Assembly: GCF_041381155.1 (NCBI RefSeq)
Contig: NC_091142.1
Coordinates: 43,002,747-43,066,746, forward strand
Source: Argopecten irradians
Lineage: Eukaryota > Mollusca > Bivalvia > Pectinida > Pectinidae
Reading direction: 5' to 3'
DNA length: 64,000 bases
Shown here in pieces: positions 2,104 to 29,600 of this stretch (position 1 is its first letter; each line of letters opens with the position of its first letter). A model generated the notes under the pieces. The model did no database searches. It was not told the DNA's origin and worked only from the letters and a program-made list of their open reading frames with translations. A program made the position numbers and the translations under genes.

Positions 2104-5100
2104 AGGTGCAGGATACAGCTGCCGATGAGCTCCAGACAGACAGACACATACTCCTGTATCTTACACGTCAGATAGGCACACTTCAGGGAGATATCCAAGA
2201 TGGAGTCCAACAGGTGCCACCAGCGCTCTCCTCGGTAATCCCACATCACCTTGTTCAGTAACCTGGACAACAGATAAATATCAACATAGATCCCAAATAA
2301 CTTGTTCAGTAACCTGGACAACAATTAACAGGGATGAAAATCTTAACAAAGGTTGAAATTCACTTTTTTAGTTGAAACTATAATTTATATAGAATTACAT
2401 ATACCAAGTAGCTAAATTCTGAAATTCAAAAAGGCTAAAATCAGCCAATCAGCCAAGGATTTAATTTTCATTTCTGAATTACAAGTAATTAAGGTCACTG
2501 ACTAAATGCTGAAGGATTTCCTTTGTGTAAGATAATGTTACAGATTCTGAAGTAGTGGATGGCTTTTGTAGTGTAGGTAGCAATGACATAATAATGTATT
2601 AATTTGTAAGAATCTGTGTATCAAACAGTCACTGAAAAGAGTTTAACACAGCCAAAGTTTCTTCGTGTATAAAATACTTGACAACATTATAATACTTACA
2701 TGAGAGCTTTGTTGTAATCTTTGGCGTGGAAATACTCTTCTCCCATCTGTACCACTGAAACACCAGTACTAGCTAGTCAGTATAAATGATCACTAATTTA
2801 TAACTCTCTCATCTGTACCACTGAAACACCAGTACTAGAAAGTCAGTATCAATGATCACTAATTTATAACTCTCTCATCTGTACCACTGAAACACCAGTA
2901 CTAGAAAGTCAGTATAAATGATCTCTAATTTATAACTCTCTCATCTGTACCACTGAAACACCAGTACTAGAAAGTCAGTATCAATGATCACTAATTTATA
3001 ACTCTCTCATCTGTACCACTGAAACACCAGTACTAGAAAGTCAGTATCAATGATCACTAATTTATAACTCTCTCATCTGTACCACTGAAACACCAGTACT
3101 AGAAAGTCAGTATAAATGATCACTAATTTATAACTCTCTCATCTGTACCACTGAAACACCAGTACTAGAAAGTCAGTATCAATGATCACTAATTTATAAC
3201 TCTTCCATCTGTACCACTGAAACACCAGTACTAGAAAGTCAGTATCAATGATCACTAATTTATAACTCTCTCATCTGTACCACTGAAACACCAGTACTAG
3301 AAAGTCAGTATCAATGATCACTAATTTATAACTCTCTCATCTGTACCACTGAAACACCAGTACTAGAAAGTCAGTATCAATGATCACTAATTTATAACTC
3401 TCTCATCTGTACCACTGAAACACCAGTACTAGCTAGTCAGTATCAATGATCACTAATTTATAACTCTCTCTCATCTGTACCACTGAAACACCAGTACTAG
3501 AAAGTCAGTATAAATGATCACTAATTTATAACTCTCTCATCTGTACCACTGAAACACCAGTACTAGAAAGTCAGTATCAATGATCACTAATTTATAACTC
3601 TCTCATCTGTACCACTGAAACACCAGTACTAGAAAGTCAGTATCAATGATCACTAATTTATAACTCTCTCATCTGTACCACTGAAACACCAGTACTAGAA
3701 AGTCAGTATCAATGATCACTAATTTATAACTCTCTCATCTGTACCACTGAAACACCAGTACTAGTCAGTAAAATGATCACTAATTTATAACTCTCTCATC
3801 TGTACCACTGAAACACCAGTACTAGAAAGTCAGTATAAATGATCACTAATTTATAACTCTCTCATCTGTACCACTGAAACACCAGTACTAGAAAGTCAGT
3901 ATCAATGATCACTAATTTATAACTCTCTCATCTGTACCACTGAAACACCAGTACTAGAAAGTCAGTATAAATGATCACTAATTTATAACTCTCTCATCTG
4001 TACCACTGAAACACCAGTACTTGTCAGTATCAATGATCACTAATTTATAACTCTCTCATCTGTACCACTGAAACACCAGTACTAGTCAGTATCAATGATC
4101 ACTAATTTATAACTCTCCCATCTGTACCACTGAAACACCAGTACTAGTCAGTAAAATGATCACTAATTTATAACTCTCTCATCTGTACCACTGAAACACC
4201 AGTACTTGTCAGTATCAATGATCACTAATTTATAACTCTCTCATCTGTACCACTGAAACACCAGTACTAGAAAGTCAGTATCAATGATCACTAATTTATA
4301 ACTCTCTCATCTGTACCACTGAAACACCAGTACTAGTCAGTATCAATGATCACTAATTTATAACTCTCTCATCTGTACCACTGAAACACCAGTACTAGAA
4401 AGTCAGTATCAATGATCACTAATTTATAACTCTCCCATCTGTACCACTGAAACACCAGTACTAGTCAGTATCAATGATCACTAATTTATAACTCTCTCAT
4501 CTGTACCACTGAAACACCAGTACTAGCTAGTCAGTATCAATGATCACTAATTTATAACTCTCTCATCTCCAGTGTTAGAGTATCATGGTTTACATTATCA
4601 TTAATAATATGTATACTGTCTCTGTATGATTTATCGAGATTATCTCACAAAGTTGACATTAATAATATGTATATACTGTCTCTGTATGATTTATCGAGAT
4701 ATCTCACAAAGTTGACATTAATATTCTTTATCTTTCAACACAAAATTTGAATATTATGTATTTGCATGAATATACAGACACTAATTCATGATATTGCTAA
4801 TTCAAGACTTAAGAGTTTATGTAGTTATTGTATATACTAAGTTACCTAGAGAGATATTGCTACACTTGTAGTAACATAATTTATGTTATTATGTTTCATT
4901 TGATTCACTTTCTGTTATAAATTAGAATATAAGAGGAAAGCGTAATGTTATGTATATCTTACTTAGGTATCGCTTCATCCTTGGTGACTTGTATTTCTTA
5001 AACTGGGCCACAGCACTATTCAGTAGGGGGATGATGATCCACTACAAACAAACATCACTGTATTTCAGTTTTTGGAGTAAAATATAAGGTTTTAAGGTGA

Positions 5101-26600: not shown

Positions 26601-29600
26601 ATACTGTGAATATGTCCCATCAAGGTCAGATATCTAATGTGTAACTAATGTTAATGTTTAGTCTATAGGTTCTGTGAATATGTCCCATCAAGGTCAGATA
26701 TCTAATGTGTAACTAATGTTAATGTTTAGTCCATAGATACTGTGAATATGTCCCATCAGGATCAGATATCTAATGTGTAACTAATGTTAATGTTTAGTCT
26801 ATAGATACTGTGAATATGTCCCATCAGGGTCAGATATCTAATGTGTAACTAATGTTAATGTTTAGTCTATAGATACTGTGAATATGTCTTATCAAGGTCA
26901 GATATCTAATGTGTAACTAATGTTAATGTTTAGTCTATAGATACTGTGAATATGTCTTATCAAGGTCAGATATCTAATGTGTAACTAATGTTAATGTTTA
27001 GTCTATAGATACTGTGAATATGTCTTATCAAGGTCAGATATCTAATGTGTAACTAATGTTAATGTTTAGTCTATAGATACTGTGAATATGTCCCATCAAG
27101 GTCAGATATCTAATGTGTAACTAATGTTAATGTTTAGTCTATAGATACTGTGAATATGTCCCATCAGGGTCAGATATCTAATGTGTAACTAATGTTAATG
27201 TTTAGTCTATAGATACTGTGAATATGTCCCATCAGGGTCAGATATCTAATGTGTAACTAATGTTAATGTTTAGTCTATAGATACTGTGAATATGTCCCAT
27301 CAGGGTCAGATATCTAATGTGTAACTAATGTTAATGTTTAGTCTATAGATACTGTGAATATGTCCCATCAAGGTCAGATATCTAATGTGTAACTAATGCT
27401 AATGTTTAGTTTATAGATACTGTGAATATGTCCCATCAAGGTCAGATATCTAATGTGTAACTAATGTTAATGTTTAGTCTATAGATACTGTGAATATGTC
27501 CCATCAAGGTCAGATATCTAATGTCTAACTAATGTTAATATTTAGTCTATAGATACTGTGAATATGTCCCATCAGGGTCAGATATCTAATGTGTAACTAA
27601 TGTTAATGTTTAGTCTATAGATACTGTGAATATGTCCCATCAAGGTCAGATATCTAATGTGTAACTAATGTTAATGTTTAGTCTATAGATACTGTGAATA
27701 TGTCCCATCAAGGTCAGATATCTAATGTGTAACTAATGTTAATGTTTAGTCTACAGATACTATAAATATGTCCCAAAAGACTTTTTTATTGTTATTTTCA
27801 TTGTTATTAGGTATACTAAATCATGGTTTTTATCTGCATTAAGGTCAAATATGTAATGTTTAACTAATGTAATAGTCTAATGTAATGTAATGGATGTTGT
27901 AGTTACCAGATTTAATGGGATGTGCTATGTCCTTCACGCTGTTTGAGTGGGTGAAGGAGAATTATGATGATCTGGTGGCGGACCAGCCTGATTCTCAACC
28001 AAATATACAGGTAAACCAAATATACAGGTAAACCTAATATACAGGTAAACCTATTATAGAGGTAAACCTAATATACAGGTAAACCTATTATAGAGGTAAA
28101 CCTAATATACAGGTAAACCTAATATACAGGTTATCCAAATATACAGGTAAATATATGGGTAAACCTAATATACTGGTAAATATACAGGTAAACCTAATAT
28201 ACAGGTAAACCTAATATATGTGTGCCAGTAAACTAAATATACAGGTAAACCTAATATACAGGTAAACCTATTATACAGATAAACCTAATATACAGGTTAT
28301 ATACCTAATCTACAGGTAAACGTAATATACAGGTAAATCTATTATACAGGTAAACCTAATATACAGGTAAACCTATGATACAGATAAACCTAATATACAG
28401 GTTATATACCTAATATACAGGTAAACGTAATATACAGGTAAATCTATTATACAGGTAAACCTAATATACAGGTAAACCTATTATACAGCTAAACCTAATA
28501 AAAGGTAAACCTAATATACAGGTAAACCTAATATACAGGTTAACCAAATATACAGGTAAATATATGGGTAAACCTAATATACTGGTAAATATACAGTTAA
28601 ACCTAATATACAGGTAAACCTAATCTAAGGTTAACTTAATATACAGGTAAATATACAGGTAAACCTAATATACAGGTAAACCTAATATACAGGTAAACCT
28701 AATATACAGGTAAACCTAATCTAAGGTAAACCTAATATACAGGTAAATATACAGGTAAACCTAATATACAGGTTAACCAAATATACAGGTGAATATATGG
28801 GTAAACCTAATATACTGGTAAATATACAGGTAAACCTAATTTACAGGTAAACCTAATATACAGGTAAACCTGTTATACAAGTAAACCTATTACACAGGTA
28901 AACCTAATATACAGGTAAACCAAATATACAGGTAAACCTAATCTAAGGTTAACTTAATATACAGGTAAATATACAGGTAAACCTAATATACAGGTAAACC
29001 AAATATACAGGTAAACCTAATATACAGGTAATATACCTAATATACAGGTAAACCTAATATACATGTAAACCTATTATACAGGTAAACCTTATATACAGGT
29101 AAACCAAATATACAGGTAAATATACAGGTAAACCAAATATACAGGTAAATATACAGGTAAACCAAATATACAGGTAAACCAAATATACAGATAAATATAC
29201 AGGTAAACCTAAAATACAGGTAAACCTGCAGATCTGGGCCTGATTCCTCAAAGCAAACTGAAGTCATAAACAGATTTAGGTTAAAATATTTACAAAGTTA
29301 AATAAGGAAAACTAATGTTTTAACTTAATTCTTGTGCTTTTTTTGTTCTGAGAAATTGGAGCTACATGTAGTTTTATAGTTAATGCATAAATAATTTTAA
29401 CAAATGTTAAAAAATGATTTTGAGATCTTTCCATTCTCAATTTGCCATGTATTTAATCTCCTGTGTGTTATTTTGACAGAGTGAAGACAAGACAGAAACT
29501 AATGATATTGTGGAGACTTCAAAAAAGAAAGAAAAGAAAGAACAGCTCACTAAAAACCAAAAACGTAGACTTTATGAAAAACTGAATGCCCAAGGAGACC

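Follow-up and report, generated by a model that had tools for sequence, protein, structure and literature searches.

Genes and arrays in the window

The stretch analysed here, 64,000 nucleotides of the bay scallop Argopecten irradians (C9:43002747-43066746, hereafter the window), contains TRAPPC11 (minus strand) and RWDD4 (plus strand), and three splice junctions of these two genes are covered by minisatellites. Coding exons 1-13 of TRAPPC11 lie at 2117-13888 and form the 5' half of the gene, the remainder lying past window position 1. RWDD4 occupies 17655-29671 with exons 1-6, exon 2 being present in two copies. Every intron of the gene models has GT-AG borders, and the exons join into open frames. 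The models agree with the predicted A. irradians RefSeq proteins P0001 (RWDD4; 'isoform X2', the only isoform compared) and P0121 (TRAPPC11), except for the TRAPPC11 exon 13 donor, which was initially set at 2104 and lies at 2117 according to RefSeq.

A preliminary description of the window had claimed that the units of three arrays cross a true splice junction, and this was confirmed both by Tandem Repeats Finder (TRF) and by reading the arrays unit by unit. The acceptor array of TRAPPC11 exon 12 (2739-4568, minus strand) consists of 28 copies of a unit of approximately 66 nt, which includes about 15 nt of the exon, whose edge is at 2754 (TRF and mapping of RefSeq P0121). Its copies carry ...GGTGTTTCAG|TGGTACAGATG; every copy ends with ...GTGTTTCAG|TGGTACAGATG, and the true acceptor (2754) is the last, exon-proximal one. 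The donor array of TRAPPC11 exon 2 (12635-13229, minus strand, exon edge 13202) has 17 copies of a 35-nt unit made of 29 nt of exon and 6 nt of intron. The true donor is CAG|GTAAAT at 13202/13201, and the further sites of the array are 14 CCG|GTAAAT, one CAG|GTAAAT and one AAG|GTAAAC, a count that leaves out three TGT|GTAAAG. The donor array of RWDD4 exon 5 (27997-29227, plus strand, exon edge 28010) has about 75 copies of a 17-nt unit according to TRF, with 14 nt of exon and 3 nt of intron. Alignment to RefSeq P0001 places the true donor, CAG|GTAAAC, at 28010/28011. A scan of exon and array covered 70 sites, two of which lie inside the exon, and CAGGTAAAC was found at 39 of them, counting the true site. 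Read copy by copy, the units are thus built from an exon end, its splice site and the start of the intron, or from the mirror arrangement at an acceptor, which is the structure of a boundary variable number of tandem repeats (VNTR).

The exon parts of these units are conserved. The end of TRAPPC11 exon 2, the start of exon 12 (LMVQMGEE) and the exon end NDSFMFSGNKQ, carried by an array of the 3' half of the gene (see below), are ungapped in seven proteins from scallop to frog. Up to the end of exon 5 the RWDD4 protein likewise shows an ungapped alignment with Mizuhopecten and Ylistrum, in which the next exon is longer by 1-2 residues at its start. The coding exon end is therefore the source of the array and not its product.

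Choice among the repeated splice sites

The RefSeq models P0001 and P0121 use the exon-proximal copies. At RWDD4 exon 5 use of the next donor (28028) would shift the frame, and each of the four subsequent donors that were tried (28045-28096) would truncate the protein. Five decoy acceptors tried at TRAPPC11 exon 12 give YLMVQMREL followed by a stop, whereas the true acceptor reads through to the exon end.

These data bear on the idea that the repeated sites are retained for function, with splicing tuned through their redundancy or competition. Such a use is described for the human IFI6 (6-16) minisatellite, two downstream units of which serve as donors, according to the passage of PMC4526556 that cites Turri et al. 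1995, and many decoys have stayed good, as the 39 CAGGTAAAC sites of RWDD4 illustrate. However, the decoys tried in the scallop bring a frameshift or a stop, and those of TRAPPC11 exon 2 are mostly (14/16) CCG|GTAAAT, which is weaker than the true site when scored with a donor matrix. Moreover, the downstream IFI6 units are reported to be in use in that passage, whereas the scallop models compared make no such use of theirs. We therefore regard a function of the repeated sites as very improbable.

Arrays in other genes and their placement relative to splice junctions

The survey was extended to the 3' half of TRAPPC11, on five 10-kb stretches of C9 adjoining the window, with exon positions derived initially from the human protein and later from RefSeq P0121. 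Dynein, TBC and kinesin loci were obtained by Pfam search, and 30 of 80, 30 of 32 and 40 of 130 matches were taken, respectively; one TBC locus was then removed as a second copy of another. Junctions in these families were placed with a donor matrix, two of them (L051, L090) by hand. For the placement test each array was reduced to a single unit, its best-scoring TRF period, which could fall at any position except entirely within an exon or around an entire exon. A few edges in the exon table used are 1-2 nt off (exons near reg 36563 and 36148), and the table counts exon edges, so that the 40 of the window include three gene ends.

Junction arrays recur in both window genes, as had been described, and were also found in other genes. 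The strongest case is the next 31 kb of TRAPPC11, its 3' half, where 7 of 11 arrays straddle a junction against 1.05 expected, a number reached in none of 20,000 simulations (0/20,000). Their units measure about 88, 35, 63, 39, 38, 34-35 and 75 nt. TRF counts 155 copies in the 35-nt array, and in many of them NDSFMFSGNKQ, the conserved exon end mentioned above, or something near it can still be read. TRAPPC11 is struck far above random placement. In the window genes 3 of 10 arrays straddle a junction, with 0.75 expected (P 0.03).

The preliminary description had proposed, as one of two possibilities, that splice junctions are favoured start points of tandem amplification, and had named the comparison of overlap with random placement as its test. 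Run on the three families, which had not been picked for it, this test gave the proposal no significant support: straddling arrays numbered 0/24 in dynein (0.72 expected), 6/41 in TBC (3.58 expected; 58 junctions) and 3/20 in kinesin (2.23 expected), or 9/85 when pooled over 198 junctions, with 6.53 expected (P 0.19). A general junction preference is thus not shown in these families. Restricting the pooled set to arrays of at least 3 copies gave 8/50 against 5.23 expected (P 0.13). What may stand of the proposal, besides the TRAPPC11 and window excess, concerns donors. Arrays straddle 7 of 99 donor junctions in the three families (3.12 expected, P 0.04), and for units of 29-59 nt 5 were found against 1.38 expected (P 0.014). 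No rise was seen at the acceptors of these families (2/99 junctions, 3.41 expected).

Several candidates and procedures were discarded on the way. The L091 array was dropped as a straddling array, its duplication being intron-only and ending beside an acceptor. L076 and L082 appear junction-derived by eye; they fail the TRF criterion and were not counted. An earlier version of the placement test, in which the shortest TRF period served as the unit, set the expectation too low and was replaced; it had given 6 vs 2.16 for TBC (P 0.015), 3 vs 2.1 for kinesin, 0 vs 0.54 for dynein and 6 vs 0.69 for the 3' half of TRAPPC11. With the best-scoring period and more exons the family excess loses significance. 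A comparison of raw coverage, in which exon edges lay inside duplications less often (7/120) than intron points (656/3000), was rejected because long arrays fill introns, so that seeds and not bases need to be counted.

One TBC exon (L051) carries straddling arrays on both sides, at the acceptor (25-nt unit) and at the donor (52 nt: 43 of exon and 9 of intron). At another TBC locus the same 85-nt acceptor array occurs on C7 (L056) and on the small contig C391 (L057), with sequence differences, both arrays being cut by the locus ends. The two are perhaps haplotypes of one locus, and L057 was left out of the counts. This second occurrence also bears on whether the arrays might be artefacts of assembly. 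Long arrays pose difficulties for assembly, and their copy numbers may be inaccurate. Nevertheless, the L056 array recurs with differences on a second contig, units differ from copy to copy, and the same structure is found in unrelated genes, so that we consider an artefact extremely improbable.

Splice-motif words in the genome assembly

Donor-like words were counted over the 845.8-Mb assembly, a pair being two occurrences 29-59 nt apart, start to start. The word CAGGTAAGT occurs 19,404 times and the reversed word 5,409 times, and tandem pairs number 4,348 and 164, respectively. A second scrambled word, AGTCAGGAT, gave 345 pairs and its reverse 1,381. Pair counts were rejected as a measure of preference, since a few big arrays dominate them and the controls range from 164 through 345 to 1,381.

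Distinct arrays were therefore counted by hand, within the first 100 listed places for each word. This yielded 4 for CAGGTAAGT in C1:0-6.47 Mb, 22 for the reverse control in 495 Mb and 15 for AGTCAGGAT in approximately 276 Mb, the last being similar to the first control. Per locus, distinct arrays amount to 3/64 for CAGGTAAGT and 22/~3,087 for the reverse control (P 0.013). The 11-mer ACAGGTAAGTA gave 467 pairs vs 54, and 5 distinct arrays in 67.4 Mb. Arrays of CAGGTAAGT look several-fold commoner per locus than those of scrambled words, the donor-word figures resting on nine arrays.

Flanks were inspected for four donor-motif arrays, the fourth CAGGTAAGT array being left out; two of the four are exons, and one of three within the 29-59 nt set. 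At L109 the flank is a coding exon with a guanylate cyclase domain that runs to the exon end. L110, an 88-nt array and hence outside that set, has a coding-like flank without a Pfam match. L107 adjoins an apparent interspersed repeat, and no exon was seen in the flank of L108. With so few exon flanks, much of the word excess may be driven by the motif or by repeats rather than by exons. At the edge of the CAGGTAAGT array of L107 a stretch ...AAGGCCCATGGGCCTCTTGT was observed, and a similar one lies near 32786-32820 of the window; it is perhaps a dispersed repeat.

Origin of the arrays

We favour, with a probability of about two in three, the reading that these are junction-straddling minisatellites which arose by slippage or microhomology-mediated duplication across splice junctions in an array-rich genome and are spliced at the exon-proximal copy. 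In a first step, suggested by the unit ends, a short tandem duplication would by chance include the edge of an exon together with its splice site, short direct repeats having allowed either slippage during replication or microhomology-mediated repair. The duplicate would then have expanded into the intron, the array being the product seen today, and the transcript, judging from the predicted gene models, would be spliced at the copy next to the exon. Tandem repeats make up 15.1% of a published bay scallop assembly, according to an extract of PMC7090048; in a genome so rich in arrays many junctions are struck. The 5' splice sites may be struck somewhat more than other sites.

It had been argued that a passive model cannot put exon sequence inside the unit. 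This argument was not supported. A random seed near a junction can give a unit with any exon share from 0 to 1, and the share, read by hand for all but one of the 19 straddling arrays (18), averages 0.54 and is not distinguishable from uniform (Kolmogorov-Smirnov test, P 0.23), as fits random straddling. Short direct repeats were seen by eye at unit ends (AACC/AACC in RWDD4, AGATGAGAGA/AGATGGGAGA at TRAPPC11 exon 12, GACAAAA in L090), and those flanking several units would fit slippage or microhomology-mediated duplication. Taken together, the exon share and these repeats mean that exon sequence within the unit requires no special mechanism.

Four observations weigh against this reading. Random placement by itself fails for the 3' half of TRAPPC11; distinct CAGGTAAGT arrays exceed those of scrambled words beyond what random placement alone would give; some arrays, such as the donor array of L051, are without clear microhomology by eye; and none of the 60 dynein junctions (0/60) has a straddling array, which indicates that genes differ.

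The first two of these, together with the excess at donors and the 11-mer counts, speak for a further-reaching alternative, in which splice junctions, chiefly 5' splice sites, are favoured starts of tandem amplification. They would be hotspots several-fold over other sequence, and the introns of some genes, such as TRAPPC11, would be in the course of being rebuilt from copies of their own junctions. Possible routes include co-transcriptional R-loops, factors bound at splice sites or an amplification-prone GGTAAG motif. The pooled families, the acceptors and the dynein junctions argue against it, as do the sway of a few big arrays over the pair counts, the wide range of the control words and the scarcity of exons in the flanks. 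We hold this alternative to be rather unlikely, well behind chance duplication across junctions.

Relation to known systems

The preliminary description knew of no described mechanism that fits. The kind has in fact been described, in human CBS and IFI6. The CBS 31-bp VNTR, c.1444_1467+7(16_21) in an excerpt of PMC2630376, comprises by its name 24 nt of exon end and 7 nt of intron. It sits at a donor, with 16-21 copies, and is laid out like the TRAPPC11 exon 2 array (29 + 6). As presented there it is a single array in a single gene, whereas in the scallop TRAPPC11 alone has nine and others occur elsewhere in the genome, with up to 155 copies. The kind is thus already known, and its density in the scallop is new; among the literature matches listed there was no account of such arrays throughout the genome of a bivalve.

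In the AGGT model of intron gain the start of the intron equals the start of the next exon, and its end equals the end of the previous exon. The scallop arrays would likewise stem from tandem duplication across splice-site-like sequence, but intron gain by tandem duplication (PMC4974935) makes a new intron, whereas here copies of one junction lie on one side of an existing intron. The first half of the rule was compared by eye for one intron, between TRAPPC11 exons 2 and 3, and the intron start GTAAATCTAG is unlike the exon 3 start GAACAGCC.

Single junction VNTRs have so far been human curiosities. With an array at several percent of the sampled donors (7/99), the scallop provides numerous natural settings in which to test how the spliceosome selects one of several identical, consecutive sites. 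Its arrays also allow testing whether splice sites are especially vulnerable to tandem duplication. They call for caution in annotation as well, since rows of good splice sites may mislead gene models.

Single junction duplications and other features of the window

Two junctions had been described as duplicated once, and blastn bears this out: the TRAPPC11 exon 13 acceptor (2238-2328, minus strand, spacing 51-52 nt) and the RWDD4 exon 3 donor (21341-21552, plus strand, 88% over 49 nt, spacing 163 nt). A further one, absent from the earlier list, is the TRAPPC11 exon 6 acceptor (10953-11040, minus strand, 82% over 39 nt, spacing 49 nt). The duplications at exons 13 and 6 are comparable with human CBS 844ins68, in which, according to the same excerpt of PMC2630376, the intron 7/exon 8 junction is duplicated once, a single event without an array, and is tolerated since splicing chooses one copy.

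When 60 nt around each junction were searched by blastn, a spanning local copy was found at 10 of 37 window junctions, the list including an exon 13 donor at 2104, a position that RefSeq does not use; intron points outside arrays had such a copy in 55 of 1885 cases (2.9%). The ten are the TRAPPC11 exon 2 donor and exon 6, 12 and 13 acceptors, the RWDD4 exon 3 and 5 donors, and four RWDD4 exon 2 edges, which sit in a 1.76-kb duplication. This tandem duplication (17800-21240) holds the two exon 2 copies at 19095-19175 and 20858-20938. The left copy contains an apparent exon 3 fragment near 19528-19572, so that one breakpoint seemingly lies inside RWDD4 exon 3.

Two further arrays lie near exons. 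The 35-nt array of TRAPPC11 intron 13 (2-2091) stops 25 nt short of the RefSeq exon 13 donor, and blastn gave no match of it across that donor, then placed at 2104. The 68-nt array of RWDD4 intron 4 (23478-27775) is separated from exon 5 by 127 nt, which include a decayed stretch related to the array at about 27845-27875. Beyond RWDD4, some 19.5 kb (33642-53135) up to the next gene consist of 68-nt and 40-nt arrays, and an alpha/beta hydrolase exon (Abhydrolase_3) lies at 53916-54692.

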